NCBI GenBank assembly: GCA_029865325.1
Contig: JAOUHF010000007.1
Span: forward strand, 1-42,867
Direction of reading: 5' to 3'
Source: Thermoleophilia bacterium
GTDB lineage: Bacteria; Actinomycetota; Thermoleophilia; Gaiellales; Gaiellaceae
DNA length: 42,867 nt
Shown here: positions 4,145-42,867 of the stretch, piece after piece
Layout of the letters: every line of letters starts with the position of its first letter
How positions within the stretch are numbered: the stretch's first letter is position 1
The notes under the pieces: generated by a model
The model's database searches: none
What the model was told of the DNA's origin: nothing
The model's input: the letters and a program-made list of their open reading frames with translations, nothing else
Position numbers and translations under genes: made by a program

Positions 4145-4837
4145 TTGAGACCACGCCGCCGCCGGCCCTCGATGGACCGGGTCGTTCCGCGCAAGCGGGA
4201 CGAGCGAATCAACGAGGAGATCCGTGTGCCAAACGTCCGCCTGGTAGACGAGAACGGCGGGCAGGTGGGGATCACCCCGACGAAGGAAGCGCTGGAGTTC
4301 GCGTACGGGAAGGGCCTCGACCTCGTCGAGGTCGCTGCCGGCGCAGATCCGCCCGTTGCACGGGTCATGGACTACTCGAAGTACCGCTACGAGCAGGAGC
4401 AGCGCGCGAAGCAGGCCCGCAAGCATCAGCTCCAGATCCACGTCAAGGAGATCAAGCTCAGACCAAAGATCGGAATCCACGACTACGAGACCAAGAAAGG
4501 GCACGTCGTGCGCTTTCTCGGGCAGCGAGCCAAGGTCAAGGTCACGATCATGTTCCGGGGACGCGAGACGTTGCACCCGGAGCGGGGTCGAGATCTGCTC
4601 ATGCGGCTCGCTGAGGACGTCAAGGAACTCGGTTGGATCGAGCAGCAGCCAATCCTCGACGGTCGCAACATGGTCATGGTTCTCGGCCCGAACAAGAACG
4701 TAGGAGCGAAGACAGATGCCAAAGATGAAGACGTCGAAGGGCGCGAAGAAGCGCTTCAAGCTGACGGGGACAGGGAAGCTCCTGCGCAGGCACGGGATGA
4801 GGAGCCACAACCTCGAGAAGAAGTCGTCGAAGCGTAG
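4145..4837 (+). CDS. infC: translation initiation factor IF-3 with acidic tail overlapping rpmI
   Basis: IF-3 binds the 30S subunit, prevents early 50S joining and proof-reads start codons. The N-domain (RINEEIRVPNVRLVDENGGQ), the linker rich in Lys/Arg and the C-domain (KEIKLRPKIGIHDYETK, then MFRGRE) are complete. The start is uncertain: TTG at 4145, used here, or ATG at 4172, both in frame. A tiny frame MKGL (4134-4148) stands 14 bases after the AAGGAGGA ribosome site and its TGA overlaps the TTG, which would allow coupled reinitiation. The unusual part is the 3' end: the frame runs 122 bases into rpmI and adds a 44-residue tail with 16 Asp/Glu (from about [10 protein letters not shown] to VVEA). 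Many actinobacterial IF-3 proteins have acidic tails; encoding one inside rpmI is odd. Confidence 0.95.
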   Translation: MRPRRRRPSMDRVVPRKRDERINEEIRVPNVRLVDENGGQVGITPTKEALEFAYGKGLDLVEVAAGADPPVARVMDYSKYRYEQEQRAKQARKHQLQIHVKEIKLRPKIGIHDYETKKGHVVRFLGQRAKVKVTIMFRGRETLHPERGRDLLMRLAEDVKELGWIEQQPILDGRNMVMVLGPNKNVGAKTDAKDEDVEGREEALQADGDREAPAQARDEEPQPREEVVEA

Positions 4838-4913
4838 ACGCGGCTTTCGCAAGATGGAAGGCGTCGCTGCGAGCGACGCGAAGTCCGTGAAGAAGCTCCT
4901 CAGAGGGGGCTGA
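4716..4913 (+). CDS. rpmI: 50S ribosomal protein L35
   Basis: A 65-residue basic protein of the large subunit with the typical N-terminus [20 protein letters not shown] and the conserved [12 protein letters not shown] segment. The ATG at 4716 has GGAG (4703-4706) at a good distance, and this site lies inside infC. The first 122 bases of the gene (62% of it) are also read as the end of infC in another frame. The rplT start follows 5 bases after the stop, so co-translation is likely. Confidence 0.97.
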
Positions 4914-4918
4914 GCGGT

Positions 4919-5305
4919 ATGCCTCGAGTGAAACGAGCGGTCCATGCCCGCAAGAAGCGAGCCAAGGTTCTCAAGCAGGCGAAGGGCTACTACGGTCGCA
5001 AGAAGTCGAGCTATCGCTTCGCGAAGGAGCAGGTCGAGCACTCGCTCGTCTATGCGTACCGAGATCGCAAGGCGCGCAAGCGGACGTTCCGCTCGCTCTG
5101 GATCGTGCGCATCAACGCTGCTGCGCGGGTGAACGGCCTTTCCTACAACCGGTTCATGGACGGTGTGAAGAAGGCGGGGATCGAACTCGACCGTAAGTCG
5201 CTCGCGGACATTGCGGTTTCCGATCCGCAGGCGTTCGCCGCGGTTGCCGAGCGCGCGAAAGCTGCGCTCGACGCCGATGCCGACCCCGGCTCGCAAGCCG
5301 CCTGA
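4919..5305 (+). CDS. rplT: 50S ribosomal protein L20
   Basis: Large-subunit assembly protein of 128 residues that binds 23S rRNA early. The N-terminus [19 protein letters not shown], the segment [20 protein letters not shown] and the middle [20 protein letters not shown] are diagnostic. In other bacteria L20 also represses its own operon by binding the leader RNA, and a structured leader is present here before infC. Its stop codon TGA (5303-5305) overlaps the proposed CTG start of the next gene as CTGA. Confidence 0.98.
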
Positions 5306-5982
5306 TCGAGTCGCGTCAGAACGAGAAGCTCCGGCTCGTCCGGAAGCTTCTTGCTGCCCGAAAGCATCGGCTCGAGACAGGGCTGTTCGCCGCCGAGGGT
5401 GAGGATCTCATCGAGGCTGCGGTCAGTGCGGGCGTGGAGCCGGTCGAGCTCTTGGTCGCGGGCGAGAACGTCCTTCCTGAGCTGCTCGGGGAGGTGTCGA
5501 CGCTGGGACATGCCCCGCGGGCGATCGGGGTCTTTCGTCGAGACGACCTACCGGTGGGCACCCGTGATGTCGTTCTCGGCCTCTGGCAGGTGGCCGATCC
5601 TGGAAACGTCGGGACGCTTATCCGCTCGGCCGATGCGTTCGACGCCGGTATCGCGTTGTCGGAGGCCTGTGCCGATCCGCTGGGGCCGAGAGCGCTACGC
5701 GCGTCGGCAGGCGCGATCTTCCGTGTGCCGCTCGTTGGCTGGGACGCTCTGCCGAGCCCGCGGGTCGCGCTTGTCGCGCATGGCGGTACCCCTCTCGCGG
5801 ACGTCCCGCTCGAGCCTCCGCTGACCTTTCTCCTCGGGTCCGAACGGGGAAGCCTGCCGGACGACCTCGTAACAGGCGATTACAAAGCGACGATTCCTCT
5901 TCCCGGGAAAGCCGAGTCGCTGAACGTCGCCGCGGCAGGTGCGATCGCGCTCTACGAGCTCTCGCGCCGCTCTTCTCTCTGA
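5302..5982 (+). CDS. SpoU/TrmH-family RNA 2'-O-methyltransferase with non-canonical start
   Basis: SPOUT-class enzyme that methylates a ribose 2'-OH in rRNA or tRNA using S-adenosylmethionine. The three SpoU motifs are present: [25 protein letters not shown] and [22 protein letters not shown], the last forming the trefoil-knot cofactor pocket. The first GTG in frame (5434) would remove the conserved substrate-binding segment [20 protein letters not shown] and [11 protein letters not shown]. Between the in-frame stop TAA at 5194-5196 and 5434 there is no ATG, GTG or TTG. CTG at 5302, overlapping the rplT stop as CTGA, gives LIESRQNEK and a 226-residue protein, close to family N-termini. This gene usually lies between rplT and pheS. 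The exact RNA target is unknown. Confidence 0.9.
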
Positions 5983-6084
5983 GTCCGATCCCGCGCTCCC
6001 GCGCGTGGCTGGTCGCACTCGATCCGTTCTCGCAGGCGTTGCCGCAAGGTATCCGCAAGGTATCCGCAAGGTGGCGGCCTCGGA
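5983..6084. other. convergent intergenic region
   Basis: 102 bases between two converging genes. It holds the 11-bp tandem repeat described separately. I see a GC-rich CGCG-containing inverted repeat near 5992-6005 but no T-run, so no clear intrinsic terminator in either direction. Confidence 0.5.
6042..6072. repeat. 11-bp tandem repeat, 2.8 copies
   Basis: The unit CCGCAAGGTAT occurs at 6042-6052 and 6053-6063, followed by CCGCAAGGT at 6064-6072. All copies are identical where they overlap. It lies between the converging methylase and DUF2207 genes and is likely a slippage product. Confidence 0.85.
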
Positions 6085-8046
6085 CTAGCCGAATCCACCG
6101 CCGCCTCCGCCACCGCCGCCACCGCCCCCACCGGAGAACCCACCGCCACCTCCGCCCCCGCCCGAGTTCGGCGGCGCGAGCGCCGAGCCGAAGCCTGATG
6201 CAAGGTCTCCGATAGAGAGGCTGGTCGCACCCGAGCCGAGGTCACCGGCAGACGAGATCCAGTAGACAGAGCTCGCTTGATGCATCGCCTGGGGCATATG
6301 TAGCTGTGCTCCCTGGAGAACGCGCTCGGCGATCCCGAACGCGATCCCATAGACGAGGTACCGCTCCCACAGCGCGAGCGTCGCGGGAGGTGCTTCGTGG
6401 AGTCGCGGGAAGTCCGTGAGATACCGGCGGAAGGCCTCCCAGCGCTCGGCCTCCTCCTGGCCACGCTTCGTTCGGCGGCGCCAGGCTCGCCGGTTGAACA
6501 CGAGCGTCGCGACGCAGAGCACGCCGTTCGCGATCAGGCAGGCTCCGACTCCGACCAGCACAACGTCCAGGTACCTCGGATACACAGGGCGCCAGCCGTT
6601 GCTCGCGAGGACGATCAAGAGCGCGCCCGCGAGCCCGAAGAGAGCTGCTCCGAGTACGAGCGGAATCGCCCCGCGCGAGCGGAACCACGAACGCCGACTG
6701 ACCTCTTCGCTGATCCTCTCCTTGAACGACGTGAATCGAGGGTGCATCGACTCGCGCTCGTCCTCGATGCGTTCGCGGAACCGCGACAGCCGCTCCGTCG
6801 ACCCGTCGAGAACCGCGTCGATCACATCGGCGACCTCCGCCTCCCACGACGTGAGGTCCTGCGGAGTGCCGGCGGAAAGCTCGAGATCGGACACTTGCTC
6901 CGACCGCAGGCCGCCCCAGATCGGCCGCTCGGTCGTGGTCGGCTCGCTCCTGTAGACGCCGCGTCGGATCAGGTCGAAAAGCGTCGCCGTGAACTCATAC
7001 GAGCCGGCTTGGCCGCCTTGGCGGAGCAGCGTCGGTACGAGGGCGGGCTGCGTGTCGGTCGGAGGCTCCTGCTCGTACTCCCGGTCGTAGCCCGTTCGTC
7101 GCTCCCGGCCCAGGAACCAGAACACCGCTGCAACGACCAGTAGCGCGGGGATCGTCGCAAGCCCGAGGACGAGCAACCCGGTGCGGATCGGGTGATCCTT
7201 GAGCGCCTGGATGCGCTCGCTGTCACGCCCGTAGCGCTCGGCATCGGCGCGCTCCTCTTCGAGGATCCGATCGAAAGCGTTTCCTCGAGCGATCTTCATG
7301 CCGAGCGTCGACGAGAACGCCGAGCGCGGGATGAGCGAGCGCAACTCGACGAACTGGTGGGCTGGAACGCCAACGGCGCGGAGCGTCACGCGGCGACCGG
7401 CGAGGTCGACGTCGCCGCGCACCCACACGGGCTTGCCCCAGGCCCTGAGGATTCCCTCGGGCGCGCTCTCGATCGCGACGAGACGCGAGAGCGGTTCGGC
7501 CCACTGGTCTCCCCAGACCTTGAGGTTGACGTCGACGACGTCGTCGTACGCGACCGCGACGCCGCGGAGCGTGTACGAGACCGTGAAAGCTCGCGTCTGG
7601 TCGCGAGCATCGAAGTACCAGACGATGCGCATGCCATCCCCGTGCCGCACGACGCCGAACGTCCGCGCTGGGCCGGGACCGAGGTCTGTCGTAGTCCCTT
7701 GTCTGTATGCGACGCCGCGCTCGGCGACGGACGGGAGGAAGAGCGTCTCACCGGGTCGAAGCGGAATATCGCGGTACCCGAAGTGAAAGTCGCCCGAGAA
7801 AGCGACCTCGATCCGCTCGCTGATCCCGAGAGCGCCGTCGGGCTGGACGTCGACAGCGACATCAGCCGTGAGGAGCGAGAAGCCGTCGGCGCGAGCGACG
7901 CTGGGGAGCACGAGCGCGGCCGCCGTGCCCAGTACCACGCAGCCGATGATCAGCCGTAGCGGCAGCGGCCGCGAAGCGGACGCCTTCAGAGATCTTCGCG
8001 CGACCGGAAAGTCCGCGCGAGCGGATTTCCGGTCTTGCGCACTCAA
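6085..8046 (-). CDS. DUF2207 membrane protein with glycine-rich tail
   Basis: A 653-residue protein of the DUF2207 family. An N-terminal hydrophobic segment (LRLIIGCVVLGTAAALVLP, about 30-50) is a signal or anchor. The outward DUF2207 beta-rich domain follows (DVAVDVQPDGALGISERIEVAF and SGDFHFGYRDIPL). Then come a membrane helix (LLVLGLATIPALLVVAAVFWFL), a cytoplasmic region, two further helices and a final glycine-rich tail typical of the family. Function is unknown; the family often accompanies LemA. The start chosen is TTG at 8046, which overlaps the LemA stop as TTGA and keeps the signal segment near the N-terminus; the exact start is uncertain. Confidence 0.88.
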   Translation of the reverse strand: MSAQDRKSARADFPVARRSLKASASRPLPLRLIIGCVVLGTAAALVLPSVARADGFSLLTADVAVDVQPDGALGISERIEVAFSGDFHFGYRDIPLRPGETLFLPSVAERGVAYRQGTTTDLGPGPARTFGVVRHGDGMRIVWYFDARDQTRAFTVSYTLRGVAVAYDDVVDVNLKVWGDQWAEPLSRLVAIESAPEGILRAWGKPVWVRGDVDLAGRRVTLRAVGVPAHQFVELRSLIPRSAFSSTLGMKIARGNAFDRILEEERADAERYGRDSERIQALKDHPIRTGLLVLGLATIPALLVVAAVFWFLGRERRTGYDREYEQEPPTDTQPALVPTLLRQGGQAGSYEFTATLFDLIRRGVYRSEPTTTERPIWGGLRSEQVSDLELSAGTPQDLTSWEAEVADVIDAVLDGSTERLSRFRERIEDERESMHPRFTSFKERISEEVSRRSWFRSRGAIPLVLGAALFGLAGALLIVLASNGWRPVYPRYLDVVLVGVGACLIANGVLCVATLVFNRRAWRRRTKRGQEEAERWEAFRRYLTDFPRLHEAPPATLALWERYLVYGIAFGIAERVLQGAQLHMPQAMHQASSVYWISSAGDLGSGATSLSIGDLASGFGSALAPPNSGGGGGGGGFSGGGGGGGGGGGGGFG

Positions 8047-29696: not shown

Positions 29697-30359
29697 GTGC
29701 GTGCGCTCGAGCTGCTCTTCCCGGAGCGTTGCGCCGTCTGCGCATCTCCGGGGCGTGCACTGTGTGAGACCTGCCGACCGTCGCTCACGCGTCTTGCTCC
29801 GCCGGTTTGTGAACGATGTGGCTCTCCGGGAGCGTGGCCCGTGCGTCGGTGCGGCGAGTGCTCGGGCAGGAGACTTGCATTCGCTCGTGCCCGGGCGGCG
29901 ATCGTCTACGACCAACGGGCGCGACTCCTTGTCCGAGAGTGGAAGGAACGGGGCCGACGCGGGCTTGCGCAAGAGGCGGCGGCTCTCGTCGCAGAGGTGA
30001 TCCCACAGCCGGATGTCGAAGCATTCACTCACGTTCCGGGCGACCCGGAGCGAGCATGGAAGCGCGGCGATGTCGCGCCTCGTGCTCTCGCGCGCGCGCT
30101 CGAAGACATCTGGGGAGCGCCGTCTGTCGAGCTCCTGCGGCGCACACATGCGCTTCCGCGCCAGCGAGGCCTCGCACTCGCCGACCGGCGCCGCAACGTT
30201 CGCCGCAGCGTTGCAGCAATTGGTCCGGCACCTCGCACGGTGTGCCTGGTGGACGACGTCTACACGTCAGGGGCAACAGCCGACGCATGTGCCGCTGCGT
30301 TGCGCCGGGCGGGGGCGCGACGCGTCGAGGTCGTCACCCTTGCGCGAGCAGTTCGTTAG
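29697..30359 (+). CDS. ComF family phosphoribosyltransferase-like protein
   Basis: A 220-residue protein of the ComF family, linked to DNA uptake or to late recombination in other bacteria. The N-terminus has a zinc-finger-like array of cysteine pairs (PERCAVCASPGRALCETC, then CERC and RRCGEC). The C-terminal phosphoribosyltransferase domain has the PRPP-binding motif CLVDDVYTSGATADAC. The GTG at 29697 (MRALELLFPERC) is preceded by TACGCT by six bases. No other competence gene is nearby. The hpf gene follows, as is common. Confidence 0.92.
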   Translation: MRALELLFPERCAVCASPGRALCETCRPSLTRLAPPVCERCGSPGAWPVRRCGECSGRRLAFARARAAIVYDQRARLLVREWKERGRRGLAQEAAALVAEVIPQPDVEAFTHVPGDPERAWKRGDVAPRALARALEDIWGAPSVELLRRTHALPRQRGLALADRRRNVRRSVAAIGPAPRTVCLVDDVYTSGATADACAAALRRAGARRVEVVTLARAVR

Positions 30360-30399
30360 GGTGAGAGAGGTTCTCTTCCGCCGCAGATCCGGAAAGGAG
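30357..30399 (+). promoter_or_regulatory. hpf promoter candidate and strong ribosome site
   Basis: TAGGGT (30357-30362), overlapping the comF stop, is a -10 candidate. AAAGGAG (30393-30399) is a strong Shine-Dalgarno sequence six bases before the hpf ATG, in contrast to the many leaderless genes nearby. Confidence 0.45.
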
Positions 30400-30405
30400 C
30401 GTTCC

Positions 30406-30798
30406 ATGCGGGTTCACGTCAAGGCTCATCGAGGCCACGTTTCGGATCAGGTCCGGGCATACGCCGAGAAGCGGCTCGGCAAGCTTGAACGTCGTCTCTA
30501 CGCCGACACTGTCGTCGAGGTGACGATGTCTCGAGAGAACAACCCCTCGATTCGGAACGATCACATGGCTGAGGCAGTTGTGCACGCGAAGGGGCGCAAC
30601 ATCGTCGCTCGCGAGTCCGCGGAGTCCTACGAGGCGGCGATCGACCGCCTGGTCGACAAGCTGGAACGCCAGATCGAGCGCTACCGCGACAAGCGAACCC
30701 AGGAGCCGCGGCGCGCGCGCCAGCGCACCGAGCCGACCGTCGAGCCAGTCGAGCCCGAGGTCGAGGTGGCCGGCGGGCACGGGGAAGAGGCCGCCTAG
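30406..30798 (+). CDS. hpf: ribosome hibernation promoting factor, short form
   Basis: Binds the 30S decoding centre and idles ribosomes in slow growth. The 130-residue protein has the beta-alpha-beta-beta-beta-alpha fold (MRVHVKAHRGHVSDQVRAY, KLERRLYADTVVEVTMSREN, HMAEAVVHAKGRNIVARES, YEAAIDRLVDKLERQIERYRDK) and then a charged, probably disordered tail. It lacks the C-terminal dimerisation domain of the long HPF that most actinobacteria use to form 100S dimers. The ATG at 30406 has AAAGGAG six bases upstream. The stop overlaps the next gene's GTG by one base. Confidence 0.93.
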   Translation: MRVHVKAHRGHVSDQVRAYAEKRLGKLERRLYADTVVEVTMSRENNPSIRNDHMAEAVVHAKGRNIVARESAESYEAAIDRLVDKLERQIERYRDKRTQEPRRARQRTEPTVEPVEPEVEVAGGHGEEAA

Positions 30799-34708: not shown

Positions 34709-35813
34709 GTGATCGACGAATCCAGCAAGCCGCTCGACCAGCGCCTTGAGGAGATCGGGGCCCAGCTCGCCTGGGTCCGTGATTACCTTTGACCCAGACC
34801 GCTTAGCGCGCCGCCGCGTCGAGCTCGAGGGCGCGATGGGCGCGCCCGGCTTCTGGGACGACCAGCTCGGAGCTGCGCGCATCTCGACGGACCATGCGCG
34901 CATTGCCCGCAAACTCGAGCGGTACGAGCGTCTCCGAAGCGAATACGAGGACGCGAATGAGCTGCTCGCACTCGGCGAGGACCAACTCGAGATCTCCGAG
35001 CTGGTCCTGTCGCTCGAGAGTGAGCTCGGACGACTGCAGGAAGACGCGCTCTTCACGGGCGAATATGACGCGGGCGACGCGATCTTCGAAGTTCATGCGG
35101 GCACAGGGGGTACCGACGCGCAAGATTGGGCCGACATGCTCCTGCGCATGTACCTGCGGTGGACAGCGGACCGGGGGTTCCAGACCGACGTGCTCGAGGC
35201 GAGCCCTGGGGAGGAGGCGGGCCTGAAGTCGACGACCGTCGCCGTGCGTGGCGAGAACGCGTACGGGACGCTCAAGGCCGAGCGCGGTGTCCATCGCCTG
35301 GTACGGCTCTCTCCTTTCGACTCTGCACACCGGCGGCATACGGCATTTGCGCAGGTCGTCGTCGCGCCGCTCCTCGCCGACGACGCGCCGATCGAGGTGG
35401 ACGAAGCGGATCTGCGAATCGACACGTATCGCTCGAGCGGTGCGGGCGGGCAGCACGTGAACAAGACCGACTCGGCCGTCCGGATCACCCATCTCCCGAC
35501 CGGGATCGTCGTTCAGTGCCAGAACGAGCGCTCGCAGACCTCGAACAAGCAGACGGCGCTTCGCATCCTCAAGTCGCGTCTGGCAGAGCTCGAGGAGGAG
35601 AAGCGCGAGGCGGAACTCGCCCGCGAGCGAGGAGCAGCGCAGGACATTGGCTTCGGGAGTCAAATCCGCTCGTACGTGCTTCATCCGTACCAGCTCGTCA
35701 AGGATCATCGGACCGACCATGAGGTCGGAAATGCACAGTCCGTCCTCGACGGCGCGCTCGACGGCTTCGTTCACTCATATCTCCTGGCCAAGGCGGCGGG
35801 GAAGGTTCTCTAG
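34709..35813 (+). CDS. prfB: peptide chain release factor 2 with +1 programmed frameshift
   Basis: RF2 ends translation at UGA and UAA. The full protein is join(34709-34789, 34791-35813), 367 residues. The zero frame starts at GTG 34709 (MIDESSKPLDQRLEEIG) and reaches the in-frame TGA at 34790-34792 after codon 27. A +1 slip at CTT-TGA-C joins it to DPDRLARRRVELEG, as in Escherichia coli RF2 (…YL then D…). The stop-recognition motif SPF (VRLSPFDSAH) and the catalytic GGQ (SSGAGGQHVNKTDS) are present. RF2 thereby controls its own level. Reading only the open second frame would give a wrong N-terminus. Confidence 0.96.
34784..34793 (+). other. RF2 +1 frameshift site TAC-CTT-TGA-C
   Basis: CTT (34787-34789) followed by TGA (34790-34792) and C is the universal RF2 slippery site, preceded by a Tyr codon as in Escherichia coli. 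The usual AGGGGG stimulator three bases before CTT is missing; the nearest purine run is GGGT at 34773-34776, ten bases away. Confidence 0.93.
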
Positions 35814-35940: not shown

Positions 35941-36696
35941 ATGACGGCACTGGCCGAACCACAAACCATCGCAGACCCGCTTCCGGCCGTCGCCGATCCG
36001 AGCGGCTCCACGATGATCGTGTTCGAGGCCGTCAAGAAGGTCTACGAGCCCAACGTCACCGCCCTCGACGGTGTCTCTTTCACGATCGACAAGGGCGAGT
36101 TCGTCTTCGTTGTGGGGGCCTCGGGCTCGGGCAAATCGACCGTGATCCGCCTCCTCCTCAAGGAGCTCGAGCCGACGGAGGGCAGGATCATCGTCGGTGG
36201 TCGCGACCTCGGGCGGCTCAAGGGCTCGAAGGTGCCGCTCTTGAGGCGAAACCTCGGCTGCGTCTTCCAGGACTTCAAGCTGCTCCCGAACCGCACTGCC
36301 GCGGAGAACATCGGTTACGCGCTGCGCGTCCAGGGTGAGTCGAACGCGCAGATTCGCAAGAAGGTGCCGGAGGTCATGAACCTCGTCGGCCTCGCGCACA
36401 AGATGAACTCGCGGCCGGAGGAGCTCTCGGGCGGAGAGCAGCAGCGCGTCTCGATCGCGCGCGCGTTCGTCAATCACCCGCCGCTTCTCATCTGTGACGA
36501 GCCCACAGGGAACCTCGATCCCGATACGTCAGTCGGGATCATGCAGCTCCTCTACCGCATCAACCGCACCGGCACGACCATCCTCATGGTCACCCACGAT
36601 CGCGAGATGGTGGACAAGATGCGCAAACGCGTGATCGCGCTCGAGACAGGCAGGCTCGTGCGTGACGAACGGCGTGGGGGGTACTCGGAGGGATGA
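35941..36696 (+). CDS. ftsE: cell division ATP-binding protein FtsE
   Basis: ABC ATPase that works with FtsX at the divisome to control peptidoglycan hydrolases. Walker A is VGASGSGKST, the signature is LSGGEQQRVSIARA and Walker B is LLICDEPTGNLD. The length is 251 residues from ATG 35941; ATG 36013 (MIVFEAVKKVYEPN) would give the compact form usual in the family, and ATG 35839 a longer one. The extra N-terminal 24 residues (TALAEPQTIADPLPAVADPS) look disordered. It overlaps ftsX by four bases (ATGA). Confidence 0.94.
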   Translation: MTALAEPQTIADPLPAVADPSGSTMIVFEAVKKVYEPNVTALDGVSFTIDKGEFVFVVGASGSGKSTVIRLLLKELEPTEGRIIVGGRDLGRLKGSKVPLLRRNLGCVFQDFKLLPNRTAAENIGYALRVQGESNAQIRKKVPEVMNLVGLAHKMNSRPEELSGGEQQRVSIARAFVNHPPLLICDEPTGNLDPDTSVGIMQLLYRINRTGTTILMVTHDREMVDKMRKRVIALETGRLVRDERRGGYSEG

Positions 36697-37571
36697 CGCG
36701 CACACGGCTGGTGTTCTCGGAGGCGATCAAGTCGATCGCCGCGAACCTGTCGACGACTGTCGCTTCGGCCGTCTCGGTGCTCATCGGGATGTTCCTGATC
36801 GGCGTGTTCATCGGTCTCGGAACGTGGCTCGTATCGTGGTCCGACGACAAGAAGCGCGAGTTGGCTGTCCACGTGTTCATCGAGGACGGAGTGACTTCCA
36901 AGCAGGTGAACGGGCTGCGTGTCCTGCTCGAGTCGGATCCGCGAGTCCGTGAGGGCGGCATCACGTTCATCTCGAAGGAGCAGGCGCTCGCGATCATGCG
37001 CAAGCGTTCACCCGAGCTGACCCAGAACCTCGCGTCGAACCCGCTGCCGGCGTCGTTCGACGTCCTTCCCAAGAGGGGCGAGGACACCGAGGCGATCGCC
37101 CTCGATGTCAAACGCTCGAAGCTCGCTGCCGTCGGAGAGGTCAGGTGGGGCAAGGAGGTTTCCCAGCGGATCCTCCAGATCGCGCGTGCGATCCAGATCG
37201 TCTTCCTCATCGCCGTCTTCATCCTGCTCGCTGCGTCGACGATCCTCATCGCCAACACGATCCGGCTCTCCATCTTTGCGCGCCGGCGTGAGATCGAGGT
37301 CATGAAGCTCGTCGGGGCCACGAACTGGTTCATCCGCGGCCCGTTCATGCTCGAGGGCGTGCTGACAGGGCTCCTGGGGTCGCTCGCCGCGGTGATCCTG
37401 CTCTTCGCAGGACGCGAGATCGCGATTCCGCAGATCCTCGGGCACATTCAGGACGACCCTGATGTGCGCTCGCTCGCGTTCACGTGGACAGCTGCGATCC
37501 TCATCGCGGTCGGGCTCGGTATCGGCGCCCTGGGCTCTGGTCTCACGCTGCGCCGCTTCCTCCGCGTCTGA
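36693..37571 (+). CDS. ftsX: cell division permease-like protein FtsX
   Basis: Membrane partner of FtsE, 292 residues. The N-terminal helix (STTVASAVSVLIGMFLIGVFIGLGTWLV) is followed by the extracellular domain (about 55-160), which contacts hydrolases, then three helices in the FtsX domain (IQIVFLIAVFILLAASTILIAN; GVLTGLLGSLAAVILLF; WTAAILIAVGLGIGALGSGLTL). RRREIEVMKLVGATNWFIRGPF is the conserved cytoplasmic coupling segment. It starts with ATG overlapping the ftsE stop. Confidence 0.96.
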   Translation: MTRTRLVFSEAIKSIAANLSTTVASAVSVLIGMFLIGVFIGLGTWLVSWSDDKKRELAVHVFIEDGVTSKQVNGLRVLLESDPRVREGGITFISKEQALAIMRKRSPELTQNLASNPLPASFDVLPKRGEDTEAIALDVKRSKLAAVGEVRWGKEVSQRILQIARAIQIVFLIAVFILLAASTILIANTIRLSIFARRREIEVMKLVGATNWFIRGPFMLEGVLTGLLGSLAAVILLFAGREIAIPQILGHIQDDPDVRSLAFTWTAAILIAVGLGIGALGSGLTLRRFLRV

Positions 37572-37637: not shown

Positions 37638-39290
37638 ATGCGGAGCCGGCGAATTCCTCGCGGAGGAAGGCAGAAGCGGCCGAGCCGCTCCCAGCGAGCG
37701 CGCGGCCGGCCCACGCAGGCCGTTCGGGTGGCTGAGAGCAAGATCACGATCACGCTTCCGGGCCGGAACACGGCGCCCGAACGAGTCGTCGCGCACCTCG
37801 GCCCGACGAACTCGGGCAAGACGTACGCGGCGCTCGAAGAGCTCGCCGCGAAGGGCTCAGGCGTCTACGCGGGGCCACTGAGGATGCTCGCCCAGGAGGC
37901 GCACCGGCGTCTCGGCGAGCGGATCGGAACCGACTGTGTCGGGCTTGTCACCGGCGAGGAGCGGGTCAACGAACGAGCGCCCGTCATCTGCTCGACGGTC
38001 GAGATGGCGCCGTCAGGCGGCGACCTCCTCGTGCTCGACGAGGTGCAGTGGGCAGACGACACCGAACGCGGCTCGGCATGGACGAGACTCCTCCTGGCCG
38101 GCGAATACCGCGAGATCCTCCTCCTGGGCGCGCTCGACGCCCTCCCGCTCGTCGAGCGGGCGTTTCCCGACTTCGAGCTCAAGGTCTTCGAGCGCAAGCT
38201 CCCACTCGAGTTCGTCGGCGAGCGGACACTTCGCTCGCTCGGGACAGGCACCGTGGTTGTGGCGTTCAGCCGCAAGGCCGTGCTCGCGCTTGCAGGGGAG
38301 GTGAACCGCCTTCATCCAGGAAGAGTCGCTGTCCTCTACGGCGCGATGCCACTCGCTTCCCGACGTGAGGAGATCGATCGCTTTCTCTCAGGTGCAGCGG
38401 ACGTTTGTGTTGCCACCGACGTCCTCGGGCACGGCGTGAACCTCCCGTGCGAGACGCTCCTCTTTGCCGAGACGACGAAGTTCGACGGCCAGGAGCGGCG
38501 CGATCTCCACCCGTGGGAGCTCGCTCAGATCGCGGGACGAGCAGGACGATTCGGGTTGGTCGAGCGCGGTCACGTCGGCCTGCTCGCCGGGCTCGGGTGG
38601 GGGGTCGCCGACCCTAGGATCGTCGAGTCGGCTCTCGAGCCCCATGTCCCGCTTGCCGGCGGCCACATGGGGTATCGGGTCGTCGACGAGGCGCGGATTC
38701 GACCTCGCCTTTCCGACCTCGGTGTGACCGACGCGGCGCAGCTCGACGCAGCTCTGGCTGCGTGGCACCGGGTAGCGCTTCGCGAATGGGCGTTCGAGAG
38801 CTGGCTCGCTGTCGAGTCCCTCCATCCGCTTCGCCTGAGGCTCGGCGCCGTCCAGCGGCGACTCGCCGAACGTGGTCGGCGAATCTCGCTCGAGGACGCG
38901 TGGAAGCTCGCGAATGCACCGGTCGACGAGGACAACCTCGAGCTCCTTGCCACATTCGCGCTGGCGCTTGCCGGAGATCGCATCGCACGGCCGCATCTCA
39001 CGTTTCTTCTCGACACGGCGCGTCTCCGAGGCGCTTCGCTCCTGGACGCCGAGCAGGCGGGTCGGGAGGCGAGCATCCTGCGTTGGTTCGCGCTGCAGTA
39101 CTCGGATGTCGGAGGAGTCACGATCGAGCGCGCCGCCGCGCTCGAGGCGGCGGCGGCGGAGCGCGTCGTCGCCCGGCTTCGCGTGGAGGTCGAGTCGCCG
39201 ACCATCGGGCGCTGTCGCTCCTGTGGTCGCTCATGCGCACCCTGGTTCCCGCTCTGCGACCGCTGCGTGGGCAGCGTGGCTCGGTCCTGA
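37638..39290 (+). CDS. SUV3-like DExH RNA helicase with C-terminal zinc-ribbon
   Basis: A 550-residue superfamily 2 helicase most like mitochondrial SUV3. A basic N-terminal tail (1-35) precedes Walker A HLGPTNSGKTYAALEEL, GPLRMLAQEAHRR, the DEVQ box in LLVLDEVQWADDTERG, VVVAFSRKAVLALAGEVN, VLYGAMPLASRREEIDRF, VATDVLGHGVNLP and LAQIAGRAGRFG. The C-terminus has CRSCGRSCAPWFPLCDRC, a likely zinc site. SUV3 unwinds RNA for degradation in mitochondria; a role in RNA turnover is inferred here. The start at ATG 37638 is supported by TACGGT six bases upstream; GTG 37731 is a shorter option. It lies between ftsX and smpB. Confidence 0.9.
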   Translation: MRSRRIPRGGRQKRPSRSQRARGRPTQAVRVAESKITITLPGRNTAPERVVAHLGPTNSGKTYAALEELAAKGSGVYAGPLRMLAQEAHRRLGERIGTDCVGLVTGEERVNERAPVICSTVEMAPSGGDLLVLDEVQWADDTERGSAWTRLLLAGEYREILLLGALDALPLVERAFPDFELKVFERKLPLEFVGERTLRSLGTGTVVVAFSRKAVLALAGEVNRLHPGRVAVLYGAMPLASRREEIDRFLSGAADVCVATDVLGHGVNLPCETLLFAETTKFDGQERRDLHPWELAQIAGRAGRFGLVERGHVGLLAGLGWGVADPRIVESALEPHVPLAGGHMGYRVVDEARIRPRLSDLGVTDAAQLDAALAAWHRVALREWAFESWLAVESLHPLRLRLGAVQRRLAERGRRISLEDAWKLANAPVDEDNLELLATFALALAGDRIARPHLTFLLDTARLRGASLLDAEQAGREASILRWFALQYSDVGGVTIERAAALEAAAAERVVARLRVEVESPTIGRCRSCGRSCAPWFPLCDRCVGSVARS

Positions 39291-39302: not shown

Positions 39303-39707
39303 GTGACCATCGAAGAGCTTCGGGCCATTCCGCTCTTGCAGGGCGCGAGCGACAGCGCCCTCGAACGCGTTGCGAACTCGGCGGGCGAGATGACCTGCGA
39401 AGCGGGGCAGGTGCTCGCGCTCCAAGGGGACCGTGGTTCGGGGATGTTCGTGATTCTCGACGGGAGCGTCTCCGTCGAGTGGCGTGGGGGAACGGTCGAG
39501 CTCGAGGCGGGCGACTTCTTCGGTGAGCTCACGCTTCTTGCGCCGGGCGGCACGCGAATCGCGCGGGTGCGGGCATCGAGTCACGTCATGTGTCTGGCGA
39601 TACCGCGCGATGAGGCACTCGCGCTCGTCGAGTCCGAGCCGAGCGTTGCGCTCGCGATGCTGAAGGAGATCGCCCGCCGATTCGCGAGCGCCCTTCCGGA
39701 CGCGTAG
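39303..39707 (+). CDS. cyclic nucleotide-binding domain protein
   Basis: A 134-residue single CNB domain (Crp/PKA regulatory type). The beta-roll runs from GEMTCEAGQVLALQGDRGSGMFVILDGSVSVEW to the phosphate-binding cassette region FFGELTLLAPGGTRIARVRASS, which keeps the Gly-Glu and an Arg typical of ligand binders. There is no DNA-binding helix-turn-helix, so it is not a Crp regulator; it probably acts by protein contact. The GTG start at 39303 is 12 bases after the helicase stop. Ligand and partner are unknown. Confidence 0.88.
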   Translation: MTIEELRAIPLLQGASDSALERVANSAGEMTCEAGQVLALQGDRGSGMFVILDGSVSVEWRGGTVELEAGDFFGELTLLAPGGTRIARVRASSHVMCLAIPRDEALALVESEPSVALAMLKEIARRFASALPDA

Positions 39708-39763: not shown

Positions 39764-40228
39764 GTGGCCAAACCGACGGGGACCAAGCTGATTGCCGACA
39801 ACCGTCGTGCGCGGCGTGACTACGAGCTCATCGAGCGCGTCGAGGCGGGCGTCGTGCTCACGGGCTCGGAGGTGAAGTCGGCGCGCGATGGACATGTCCA
39901 GCTCGGGCAGGCGTACGCCGACATCCGCGGCAACGAAGCATGGCTCGTGGGAGCCTCGATCGCGGAGTACGCCGAGAGCGGTGGCTTCGGCCACGTCTCG
40001 GACCGGGATCGGAAGCTCCTGCTCCACCGCGGCGAGATCGACTCGCTGTACGGGAAGGTGCGCGAGAAGGGCCTGACGCTCGTGCCTACGAGGATGTACT
40101 TCAAGGACGGCCGAGTGAAGGTCGAGATCGCTCTCGCCCGCGGCCGCGAGCGCGCCGACAAGCGACGGGTCATCGCAGACCGCGACGCCCAGCGTCAGAT
40201 CGAACGCGCCATGAAGCGGCGCAGGTAG
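39764..40228 (+). CDS. smpB: SsrA-binding protein SmpB
   Basis: Partner of tmRNA in ribosome rescue, 154 residues. The OB-fold opens with TKLIADNRRARRDYELIERVEAGVVLTGSEVKS and continues LGQAYADIRGNEAWLVGASI and LTLVPTRMYFKDGRVKVEIALARG. The basic C-terminal tail (DAQRQIERAMKRRR) mimics an mRNA/anticodon strand on the ribosome. The GTG start is preceded by TACACT by seven bases. I searched by eye downstream and found no ssrA gene in this window. Confidence 0.97.
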   Translation: MAKPTGTKLIADNRRARRDYELIERVEAGVVLTGSEVKSARDGHVQLGQAYADIRGNEAWLVGASIAEYAESGGFGHVSDRDRKLLLHRGEIDSLYGKVREKGLTLVPTRMYFKDGRVKVEIALARGRERADKRRVIADRDAQRQIERAMKRRR

Positions 40229-40284: not shown

Positions 40285-40746
40285 ATGCGACGAGTGACGC
40301 TGAAGGCCAACGGCGTACGCCACGAGCTCGAGCTCGAACCGCGCGAGCTGCTGGTGTACGTGCTCCGCGAGCGGCTCGGGCTGACTGGGACGAACGTGGG
40401 GTGCGACACCTCGTCGTGCGGAGCCTGCACGGTGCTCGTGAACGACGAGGCCGTGAAGTCCTGCACGATGCTCGGAGTCCAGGCCGACGGGATGGAGATC
40501 ACGACGATCGAGGGTCTCGCGACGAACGGCCAGCTGCATCCGGTTCAGCAAGCGTTCCACGACCATCACGCGCTCCAGTGCGGCTATTGCACCCCCGGAA
40601 TGGTGCTTGCCGCGGTCAGCCTGATCTCCAGCGGAGAGGCAACCGACGAGGCCGCGATCCGGGAGGGGCTCGAGGGGAACCTCTGCCGTTGCACCGGGTA
40701 CCACAACATCGTCAAGGCCGTCGCGGCCGCAGCGGGGGTGAGCTAG
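40285..40746 (+). CDS. [2Fe-2S] small subunit of a molybdenum hydroxylase (CoxS-like)
   Basis: A 153-residue iron-sulfur subunit of the xanthine dehydrogenase family. The N-terminal ferredoxin-like cluster uses Cys40, Cys45, Cys48 and Cys60 (GCDTSSCGACTVLVNDEAVKSC). The C-terminal four-helix cluster uses Cys99, Cys102, Cys134 and Cys136 (CGYCTPGMVL, GNLCRCTGYHNIVKAV). All eight ligands are present. It passes electrons from the molybdenum site to the flavin subunit, which is not in the window. The large subunit gene starts directly after its stop codon. Confidence 0.95.
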   Translation: MRRVTLKANGVRHELELEPRELLVYVLRERLGLTGTNVGCDTSSCGACTVLVNDEAVKSCTMLGVQADGMEITTIEGLATNGQLHPVQQAFHDHHALQCGYCTPGMVLAAVSLISSGEATDEAAIREGLEGNLCRCTGYHNIVKAVAAAAGVS

Positions 40747-42867
40747 ATGACGTCGACCGAGACCACGGGCACGTTCGTCGGGACCTCCGTCAAGCGAAAG
40801 GAAGACGCGTCGCTTCTCCGTGGGCGCGGCACCTACGTGGAGAACCTCAATCTGCCAGGAACCGTCTTCATGGCGATCGTCCGCAGTCCGTATCCCGCTG
40901 CGCGCATCACGAGCGTGAACCTCGACGCCGCGCGCGTCGCAAAGGGTGTCGTCGCAGCGTTCAGCGGAGCCGACCTCGCCGAGGACTGGAAAGGCTCGCT
41001 GCCGTGTGCATGGGCGGTCACGGAAGACATCAAGATGCCGCCCCATTACCCACTTGCCGTGGACGAGGCGCGCTATCAGGGCGACGGGGTCGCCGTGGTG
41101 ATTGCCGATAGCCGCGTGCTCGCCAAGGACGCGGCCGAGCTCGTGGAAGTCGAGTACGTGCAGCTGGCGTCGATCGCCGGCGTCGAAGAGGCGCTCGAAG
41201 AAGGCGCGCCGCTCGTTCACGCCGACCTCGGGACGAACGAGTGCTACGTGTGGAAGCTCGACTCGGGTGACGTTCAAGCTGCGATCGACGCCGCCGACGT
41301 CGTCGTCACGCGAAGGTACGTCCAGCCGCGTCTCATCCCGAATGCCATTGAGCCCAGGGGCGTACTTGCTCAGGCAGGCCCGACCGATGAGCTCACGCTC
41401 TGGTCGGCGACGCAGATCCCGCACGTCCTTCGCTTCGCGCTCCAGCTCGTTCTGGGTATTCCGGAGTCGAAGATTCGAGTTATCGCTCCCGATGTAGGAG
41501 GCGGTTTCGGCTCCAAGCTCGACGTGTACGCCGAGGAGGCACTTGCGGCGGCGCTGGCGAAGCGGCTCGGTGTCCCCGTCAAGTGGACCGAGGAGCGCAC
41601 AGAGAACTACCAGGCCACGACTCACGGGCGCGACGTCGTCCATGAGTTCACGTTCGCGGCCACCAGGGACGGCACGATCACCGCGGTCAAGTCCGAAGCC
41701 AAGTGCGCGATGGGCGCGTATCTCCAGCTCGTCACGCCCGGCGTTCCGCTTCTCGGAGCGTGGATCTATTCGGGGCCGTATGAGATTCCCAACTACAGCG
41801 TCACGTTTACGGGGGTCTTCACGCACACGACCCCCACCGACGCCTATCGTGGCGCCGGCCGCCCGGAGGCGACCTACGTCATCGAGCGGGCGATGGACGC
41901 GCTGGCGCGAGAGCTGGACATGGATCCGCTCGAGCTTCGGCACAAGAACTTCATCAAGGAGTTCCCGCACACGATGGCCTCGGGCCTCACGATCGACTCG
42001 GGCGACTATAAGGCGTCGTTGGACAGGCTCCTCGAGATCCTCGAGCTGGACGGCATTCGGGCCGACCAGGCTGACAGGCGCTCGCGAGGCGACGCGAAGC
42101 AGATTGGTGTCGGCTTCTCCACGTACAACGAGATGTGCGGCCTCGCTCCGTCGCGCATCCTCGGCGCGATTCGGTACGCCGCCGGCGGTTGGGACTCGGC
42201 GACGATCCGTTTCCAACCGCTCGGCTCGGTCCAGGTCGTGACGGGCACCTCGCCGCACGGGCAGAGCCACGAGACGACGTTTGCGCAGGTCGTCGCCGAC
42301 CAACTCGGTGTCGACGTCGACGAAGTCGAGGTCCTACACGGCGATACCGCCGTGTCGCAGCTCGGCATGGACACGTACGGGAGCCGGTCGCTCGCCGTCG
42401 GCGGGATCGCCCTCTACCACGCGAGCCAGAAGGTGATCTCCAAGGCCCGGAGGATCGTCGCTCACCAACTCGAGGTTTCTGAGGACGATCTCGAGTTCGC
42501 GGACGGCAGCTTCAGCGTGAAGGGCTCGCCGGACCGGTCGATGACGATCAAGGAGTCCGCGTTCGCCGCATTCTCGGCGCACAACCTCCCGGACGGTATG
42601 GAGCCCGGACTCGAGGAGACGGCGACCTACGATCCGGCGAACTTCTCTTGGCCCGGCGGCGCGCACGCGGCGGTCGTCGAGGTCGATACGGAGACAGGGG
42701 ACACGCGACTCATCCGCTACGTCGCCGTCGACGACGTCGGTAATCCCGTCAATCCTCAGATCATCGACGGGCAGGTGCACGGTGGCGTGACCCAGGGAAT
42801 CGCCGCTGCGCTCTACGAGGAAGGAGCATACGACGAGGAGGGGAACCTCCTGACGACGACGATGACC
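40747..42867 (+). CDS. molybdenum hydroxylase large subunit, form II CoxL-like (partial)
   Basis: The first 707 codons of a molybdopterin-binding subunit that runs off the window end; full family members have about 780 residues. The N-terminus (SVKRKEDASLLRGRGTYVENLNLPG) and the aldehyde oxidase/xanthine dehydrogenase a/b hammerhead domain are complete. VIAPDVGGGFGSKLDVYAEE and the cofactor-binding SPHGQSHETTFAQ are visible. The active-site loop reads AYRGAGR (residues 366-372), the form II signature, and not the AYRCSFR of proven carbon monoxide dehydrogenases. So the substrate is open: an aldehyde, purine or N-heterocycle is as likely as CO. The medium (FAD) subunit probably lies beyond the window. 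Confidence 0.93.
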   Translation, partial: MTSTETTGTFVGTSVKRKEDASLLRGRGTYVENLNLPGTVFMAIVRSPYPAARITSVNLDAARVAKGVVAAFSGADLAEDWKGSLPCAWAVTEDIKMPPHYPLAVDEARYQGDGVAVVIADSRVLAKDAAELVEVEYVQLASIAGVEEALEEGAPLVHADLGTNECYVWKLDSGDVQAAIDAADVVVTRRYVQPRLIPNAIEPRGVLAQAGPTDELTLWSATQIPHVLRFALQLVLGIPESKIRVIAPDVGGGFGSKLDVYAEEALAAALAKRLGVPVKWTEERTENYQATTHGRDVVHEFTFAATRDGTITAVKSEAKCAMGAYLQLVTPGVPLLGAWIYSGPYEIPNYSVTFTGVFTHTTPTDAYRGAGRPEATYVIERAMDALARELDMDPLELRHKNFIKEFPHTMASGLTIDSGDYKASLDRLLEILELDGIRADQADRRSRGDAKQIGVGFSTYNEMCGLAPSRILGAIRYAAGGWDSATIRFQPLGSVQVVTGTSPHGQSHETTFAQVVADQLGVDVDEVEVLHGDTAVSQLGMDTYGSRSLAVGGIALYHASQKVISKARRIVAHQLEVSEDDLEFADGSFSVKGSPDRSMTIKESAFAAFSAHNLPDGMEPGLEETATYDPANFSWPGGAHAAVVEVDTETGDTRLIRYVAVDDVGNPVNPQIIDGQVHGGVTQGIAAALYEEGAYDEEGNLLTTTMT

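Follow-up and report, generated by a model that had tools for sequence, protein, structure and literature searches.

A compact SUV3-type helicase gene lies in the slot of an RNase R-like nuclease gene upstream of smpB in part of the Gaiellaceae

Results

Organisation of the locus

The window, meaning the whole stretch of 42,867 nucleotides analysed here, comes from a Gaiellaceae draft genome (G000; 2.59 Mb, 192 contigs, 95% complete). Its genes run in the order secA, PAP2, prfB, ftsE, ftsX, helicase, cNMP-binding protein, smpB and then a [2Fe-2S] small subunit and a large subunit. All features located below are on the forward strand. The prfB gene (release factor 2; 34746..35813) served as the anchor for locating this region in other genomes, and like ftsE (36013..36696, counted from the start of the FtsE-matching stretch) it was assigned by sequence match. 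The ftsX gene (36693..37571; Pfam and NCBIfam) forms the upstream border of the slot that is the subject of this work. The helicase gene (37638..39290) begins with an ATG 66 bp past ftsX and is an ORF of 550 amino acids. It is followed by a gene for a cyclic-nucleotide-binding-domain (CNB) protein (39303..39707; Pfam) and by smpB (39764..40228; Pfam and NCBIfam), which starts 473 bp downstream of the helicase with the CNB gene in between. The first-pass annotation, which had been made from the sequence alone, named smpB and the CNB gene as neighbours, and both are present downstream. The small and large subunits (40291-42867), which we take to be of the CO/xanthine-dehydrogenase type, close the window, and the large-subunit gene is cut by the contig end. 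A [2Fe-2S] small-subunit gene was also seen downstream of smpB in several helicase-bearing Gaiellaceae, and a Ribosomal_S30AE (hibernation-factor-like) domain gene lies at 30013-30798, shortly before secA.

The helicase ORF opens with a basic tail (codons 1-45, 37638..37772) that holds a KRPSRS-like motif. It continues with the RecA1/DEXQc_Suv3 domain (Pfam, residues 48-175, 37779..38162), in which translation and alignment place the Walker A motif GPTNSGKT (residues 55-62, 37800..37823) and motif II DEVQ (residues 134-137, 38037..38048). The further helicase motifs are YGAMPLASRREE, ATDVLGHGVNLP and QIAGRAGRFG (residues 297-306), the last of which ends the RecA2/Helicase_C domain (Pfam, residues 206-306, 38253..38555). 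Profile alignment and the predicted fold place a putative SUV3_C-equivalent helical domain at residues about 366-519 (38733..39194), and the alignment reveals a zinc-ribbon-like CxxC-x10-CxxC, a putative metal site, at residues 526-543 (39213..39266).

The helicase is of the SUV3 type

Pfam model PF22527 (DEXQc_Suv3) matched the helicase with an E-value of 2.7e-33 (115.2 bits, cut-off 27) and Helicase_C matched at 3e-10, while the generic DEAD model stayed below its cut-off. The reading frame is kept, far beyond chance, in the 47 other rows of our alignment A1 (39-90% identity), and PF22527 was matched by all 48 rows at E<=1 (best 1.7e-38). The best PDB sequence matches were yeast Suv3 (158.9 bits) and human SUPV3L1 (117.6 bits), followed by Ski2 (61.8 bits). 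Searching PDB with the 48-row profile also brought SUV3 first (239, then 197 bits; next family 101). The AlphaFold2 model has a pLDDT of 91.8 and a pTM of 0.88, with residues 1-11 under 50. With this predicted model, Foldseek found human SUV3 as the best fold (E 1.6e-27), and VIA-align superposed model residues 32-536 on it with a Z of 35.7 and an rmsd of 2.8 over 463 residues at 24% identity; the best non-SUV3 chain among the matches listed reached 18.4. The next folds after SUV3 were Ski2/Mtr4/Hel308-type helicases, with Hel308 and POLQ among the neighbours.

Profile-profile alignment (hhalign) against five bacterial SUV3 proteins, from Azospirillum, Methylobacterium, Vitreoscilla, Pontibacillus and Niveispirillum (L144, L145, L147, L149 and L151), covered window residues 40-517 with a probability of 100% and an E-value of 3.3e-72. 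Four of the five (all except L151) were scanned with Pfam. They are 713-771 aa long and have long N-terminal parts compared with the compact window form; SUV3_C (PF12513) was matched in 4/4 and Suv3_C_1 (PF18147) in 3/4. Neither model was listed at E<=1 for any of the 48 alignment members, and the helicase region nevertheless aligns with the bacterial SUV3s that match the SUV3_C models. No smpB was among the matches in the fetched regions around these bacterial SUV3 genes.

A tree of SUV3-type and HelY proteins, with seven HelY proteins as its root, put every SUV3-type protein on one side of a branch supported at 100/100; RecQ and DEAD-box helicases were outside this tree and were compared by score only. 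The window-type (compact) helicases formed one clade (99/98) in the tree without outgroup, but not when the tree was rooted on HelY. Since Pfam, PDB, fold, profile alignment and rooted tree agree, we regard the protein as a SUV3-type helicase. Judged by sequence and predicted structure, the ORF product is a compact form of this type without the N-terminal domain. The assignment to SUV3 over DEAD-box or RecQ types, made in the first-pass annotation from the motifs, was therefore borne out by sequence, fold, profile-profile comparison and tree, and no grouping with another SF2 clade represented in the tree was found.

RecQ and DEAD-box identities gave weaker matches in Pfam, NCBIfam and PDB. HelY/Ski2 identity was rejected on the score gap (453 bits or more for the window-type profile against 84 or less) and on the separate sides of the tree. 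HelY and Ski2-Mtr4 proteins are SF2 helicases too and differ in their length of about 900 aa. PF22527 exceeds its cut-off, at about 1e-9, for HelY/Ski2-type proteins in many actinobacteria (frames mostly about 900 aa), which is a trap for automatic annotation.

Compared with human SUPV3L1/SUV3 (PDB 3rc3, 3rc8), the helicase shares RecA1 with DEXQ, RecA2 and the C-terminal helical domain. It lacks the N-terminal domain, its core starting near residue 46, adds the basic tail and the C-terminal CxxC-CxxC ribbon, and is encoded in a bacterial gene cluster. With the yeast Suv3-Dss1 complex mtEXO (PDB 6f4a) it shares the Suv3 core. The partner of the helicase in mtEXO is described as a nuclease of the RNase II family, whereas the window slot is without an RNase R-like gene and PNPase would be the candidate nuclease.

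Basic tail, C-terminal ribbon and motif II

The 45 residues of the N-terminal tail contain 14 K/R and a single acidic residue, in line with the basic tail described at first pass. Of 29 Gaiellaceae loci, 28 have the KRPSRS-like motif and one reads KRPGRAQR instead. Of 51 other homologues whose core start could be read, 1 has it (L061, without a core start, was dropped). In L054 the counted match lies further upstream, and the tail of the same protein also reads KRPSRSER. By these counts the tail motif is lineage-specific, being confined almost entirely to the Gaiellaceae copies.

The ribbon had been proposed to contain four or five cysteines. Four of them hold: C526, C529, C540 and C543 are each C in 47 of the 48 rows, the exception being an Agromyces protein (L110), and P535 is invariant across all 48. 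The fifth does not, C533 being C in only 13/48. The ribbon may be old, because the Azospirillum SUV3 also ends in CxxC-CxxC; this megaplasmid-encoded protein (L144:2877-5192) carries SUV3_C domains and a terminal CxxC-x12-CxxC.

The fourth residue of motif II was Q in 24/48 rows and H in 24/48 (DEXQ vs DEXH). The aligned Geodermatophilaceae homologues (within L065-L109) read DEXH, not DEXQ, and no smpB was seen in the flanks fetched for them; their role may differ from that of the window type.

Distribution of the helicase

Of the 103 Gaiellaceae genomes, 33 carry the helicase. A profile search of a phylum sample detected it in 6/396 genomes (453 bits or more), and the next score was 84 bits for a 923-aa frame. 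Geodermatophilaceae homologues, about 41-44% identical, were common among the matches listed. No ftsX or smpB was found near the non-Gaiellaceae homologues within the fetched flanks (up to 6 kb, some contigs being shorter), so the helicase family has no intrinsic tie to trans-translation. Another bacterial SUV3-like architecture was observed in rhizobia, where the genes of SUV3-core helicases of 1060 and 1023 aa (L146 and L148), without a SUV3_C match, have a gene for an RNA-binding S4-domain protein and one for a ferredoxin behind them.

One slot, two alternative genes

Comparison of the Gaiellaceae genomes, mostly drafts, showed that the slot after ftsX holds either the helicase (32 typed genomes) or an RNase R-like RNB gene (48 typed genomes), and never both. 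By coordinates, the strong RNB gene is often 2-3 kb downstream of prfB, and the loci were therefore fetched from prfB. Sixty prfB-anchored loci (25 from helicase genomes and 35 from others) comprised 23 with helicase, 30 with RNB and none with both, the remaining 7 being truncated by a contig end or by the limits of the stretch taken. Twenty further prfB-anchored loci, all from helicase-free genomes, gave 18 RNB and 2 cut loci. In loci L004-L032 (29 genomes) the helicase is beside ftsX in 28 and/or smpB in 26; with the window, L235 and L237 included, it is beside ftsX and/or smpB in 32 of the 33 genomes, G087 being the single helicase genome with an untyped slot. In both kinds of locus, ftsX and the slot gene are sometimes separated by at least about 1.2 kb. 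An S41 peptidase precedes the slot gene in both loci compared, L200 (helicase) and L221 (RNB), and the two peptidases are 40% identical.

Downstream, smpB follows the helicase in 27/32 loci (window included), on the same strand and at 28-1205 bp in 26 loci. It lies within 2.1 kb downstream in 27 of the 48 RNB loci. Thirteen of the other 21 have under 1 kb of sequence left, and in 8/48 smpB is absent from the 1.8-3.1 kb available downstream; the tie of the slot to smpB is thus not strict. The slot nuclease of L225 has RNB and S1 domains and scored 428.8 bits against the RNase R model TIGR02063; as this is under the cut-off of 597.85, we call the slot nuclease RNase R-like and not a certified RNase R. 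The slot RNB gene is broken into two frames in the draft loci L211, L255 and L257, through sequencing error or decay.

Counted anywhere in the genome, RNB (PF00773) was present in 68/103 family genomes: 6/33 with helicase and 62/70 without (Fisher p 3e-12, uncorrected for kinship). Neither gene was detected in 8/103. When only the 35 genomes with completeness of 90% or more and contamination of 5% or less are counted, RNB was found in 2/12 with helicase and 22/23 without; in the one exception (G044, neither RNB nor helicase) the slot is cut by a contig end. A leftover of the nuclease was looked for in 22 helicase loci, and tblastn found no RNB remnant at E<=1. The RNB matches of the six helicase-bearing Gaiellaceae are more divergent (130-159 bits), and the one read in detail, L282, has RNB without S1. 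Likewise, of 42 helicase-bearing genomes outside the family, 20 have a divergent RNB (118-147 bits; L089 and L101 outside the count), as do the helicase-free G068 and G069. By gene content and gene order, the helicase gene has taken over the position of the nuclease gene, suggesting that these genomes traded one machine for clearing RNA for a different one.

Direction and number of exchanges

Among 20 outgroup loci of the class, chosen around the RNB gene, 19 have RNB upstream of smpB; the distance is at most 0.8 kb in 18 of them and 2.9 kb in L268. The remaining locus, L274, had no smpB in 4.6 kb. This arrangement indicates that the nuclease is ancestral and the helicase the newcomer. An RNB match was present in all 34 class genomes outside the family. 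In the phylum sample some RNB was found in 188/396 genomes and no RNB match in 208/396, so that RNB absence as such is common in the phylum.

A species tree was built from the slot-flanking genes PrfB, FtsE, FtsX and SmpB (quick search, LG+G4). Helicase-bearing genomes formed two clades in it, and a single clade was not rejected (AU p 0.254). Because its genes flank the slot, local recombination could mislead this tree. The Gaiellaceae helicases themselves formed one clade (98/98). The helicase, carried by five Gaiellaceae genera in two groups on the tree, thus appears to have replaced the nuclease once or twice. As presence and absence are clade-bound, the association rests on one or two events.

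PNPase, tmRNA and the CNB gene

Co-occurrence with PNPase, proposed at first pass as a check, was found in 31 of the 33 helicase genomes (E<=1e-60), the two without it being 53-58% complete; the window genome has a PNPase gene. PNPase was also present in 93/103 genomes of the family; being near universal, it is not specific to helicase genomes.

A tmRNA was detected in 91/103 family genomes at E<=0.001, in 67 of them above the gathering score. Of the 33 helicase genomes, 21 have a tmRNA scoring above 100 bits. In 18 of these 21 the tmRNA shares contig and strand with the helicase and is at most 8 kb downstream of it (G015, G030, G031, G039, G040, G041, G043, G045, G048, G084, G085, G086, G087, G088, G090, G091, G095 and G099). 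In G000, G042 and G089 it is on another contig. ARAGORN gave tag peptides for all four helicase loci scanned (L196, L198, L200 and L201). In L200 the order is helicase (4261-5853), smpB (5905-6366) and tmRNA (6811-7177, tag ANPRDLALAA). The tmRNA of the window genome (tag ANKNELALAA) is on contig C22, where by eye it lies near a CO-dehydrogenase-medium-subunit-like gene and two MoxR-like ATPases, consistent with C22 following the window.

Among 22 helicase loci, four of which stop short of smpB, the CNB gene was present in 7, so the CNB protein is not a conserved partner of the helicase; it looks like a lineage-specific neighbour. With PADLOC it partially matched Pycsar and TIR-effector models at no more than 49 bits, its cNMP-binding domain being the presumed cause. 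For the helicase itself PADLOC gave only partial helicase-domain matches (39.2 bits or less), and a role in anti-phage defence was rejected. The link to RNA turnover or ribosome rescue, which had been hinted at from the two neighbours, is strengthened by the RNase R-like slot upstream of smpB, often with ssrA; the CNB protein is its weak part.

Discussion

The Gaiellaceae helicase sits where sister genera keep an RNase R-like nuclease. In B. subtilis, rnr, smpB and ssrA are described as sharing an operon (PMC12320835), and the window helicase has the same position as RNase R relative to smpB; where a helicase genome has a clear tmRNA, the position relative to ssrA mostly agrees as well. Both proteins have a basic tail, but RNase R is a nuclease and is not homologous to the helicase. 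In E. coli, tmRNA-SmpB is described as recruiting RNase R via its K/R-rich tail to destroy non-stop mRNA (PMC3949413, PMC12320835), and RNase R unwinding as proceeding through substrate binding and hydrolysis (PMC12320835). Mitochondrial SUV3 is described as a helicase for decay that works with PNPase in man and with the RNase II-type Dss1 in yeast, and DEAD-box helicases as facilitating PNPase-dependent decay of structured RNA.

We slightly favour the reading in which the helicase and PNPase together do the work of RNase R, clearing structured and non-stop mRNA. RNase R can degrade both by itself, whereas on structured RNA PNPase is assisted by a helicase. The helicase, perhaps co-transcribed with its neighbours, would be brought to tmRNA-SmpB or the ribosome by its basic tail and/or ribbon, much like E. 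coli RNase R by its K/R-rich tail. By analogy with SUV3 and Ski2, it would load on the RNA near the 3' end, unwind it with ATP, strip RNA from rescued ribosomes or structured regions, and hand the unwound RNA to PNPase, which would cut it. Lacking nuclease activity, the helicase is not a like-for-like substitute of RNase R. A functional exchange, with loss of the nuclease and gain of the helicase at one and the same site, is the simplest reading. A bolder version, which we put forward only tentatively, is that non-stop mRNA decay was rebuilt here on the eukaryotic plan, with a Ski2-like/SUV3 helicase, recruited by tail or ribbon to ribosomes rescued by tmRNA-SmpB, extracting the mRNA and feeding PNPase in place of RNase R.

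It is also possible, if somewhat unlikely, that the protein is a general helicase of RNA decay or ribosome assembly, partnered by PNPase, whose place next to smpB is just an inherited insertion point: the RNase R-like gene would have been lost and the helicase would have come in there with no part in trans-translation. Mitochondrial SUV3 is described as such a general decay helicase; the co-occurrence with PNPase would fit this, as would the homologues elsewhere, in Geodermatophilaceae and others, that are not near smpB in the fetched flanks, and the eight RNB loci with at least 1.8 kb of downstream sequence and no smpB. However, every typed slot has the same flanks around the exchanged gene, the two genes never occur together in one locus, and the tail motif is specific to the Gaiellaceae copies.

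An improbable alternative is direct action on stalled ribosomes, the helicase pulling the mRNA to split or clear them like Ski2-like helicases, with decay secondary. The nearest folds after SUV3 are indeed of the Ski2/Mtr4/Hel308 type and the gene lies between prfB-ftsEX and smpB, often with ssrA, but no ribosome-binding domain was identified, the tail and ribbon being no more than candidates. A role on DNA, in repair or recombination, is very improbable: rice SUV3 is described as a helicase binding DNA and RNA, SUV3 proteins can unwind DNA too and Hel308 and POLQ are among the fold neighbours, yet the gene context is translation termination and rescue and the gene replaced is an RNA exonuclease.

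Judged by titles and the starts of abstracts, we found no report of a SUV3-for-RNase R swap in the open-access literature, and none joining SUV3, SmpB, tmRNA and helicase. Sister genera that differ by a clean swap near smpB are a natural experiment in which the clearance of non-stop mRNA in bacteria without RNase R can be tested directly. A recruitment role of the conserved basic tail can be assayed, and the compact bacterial SUV3, of 550 aa and without the N-terminal domain, would be useful for dissecting the mitochondrial enzyme. If the reconstruction of non-stop mRNA decay outlined above is true, PNPase would act in this route as an exosome-like phosphorolytic ring, and the Gaiellaceae would offer a natural case in which a helicase-phosphorylase pair stands in, at one position of the chromosome, for a hydrolytic nuclease to which it is not orthologous.
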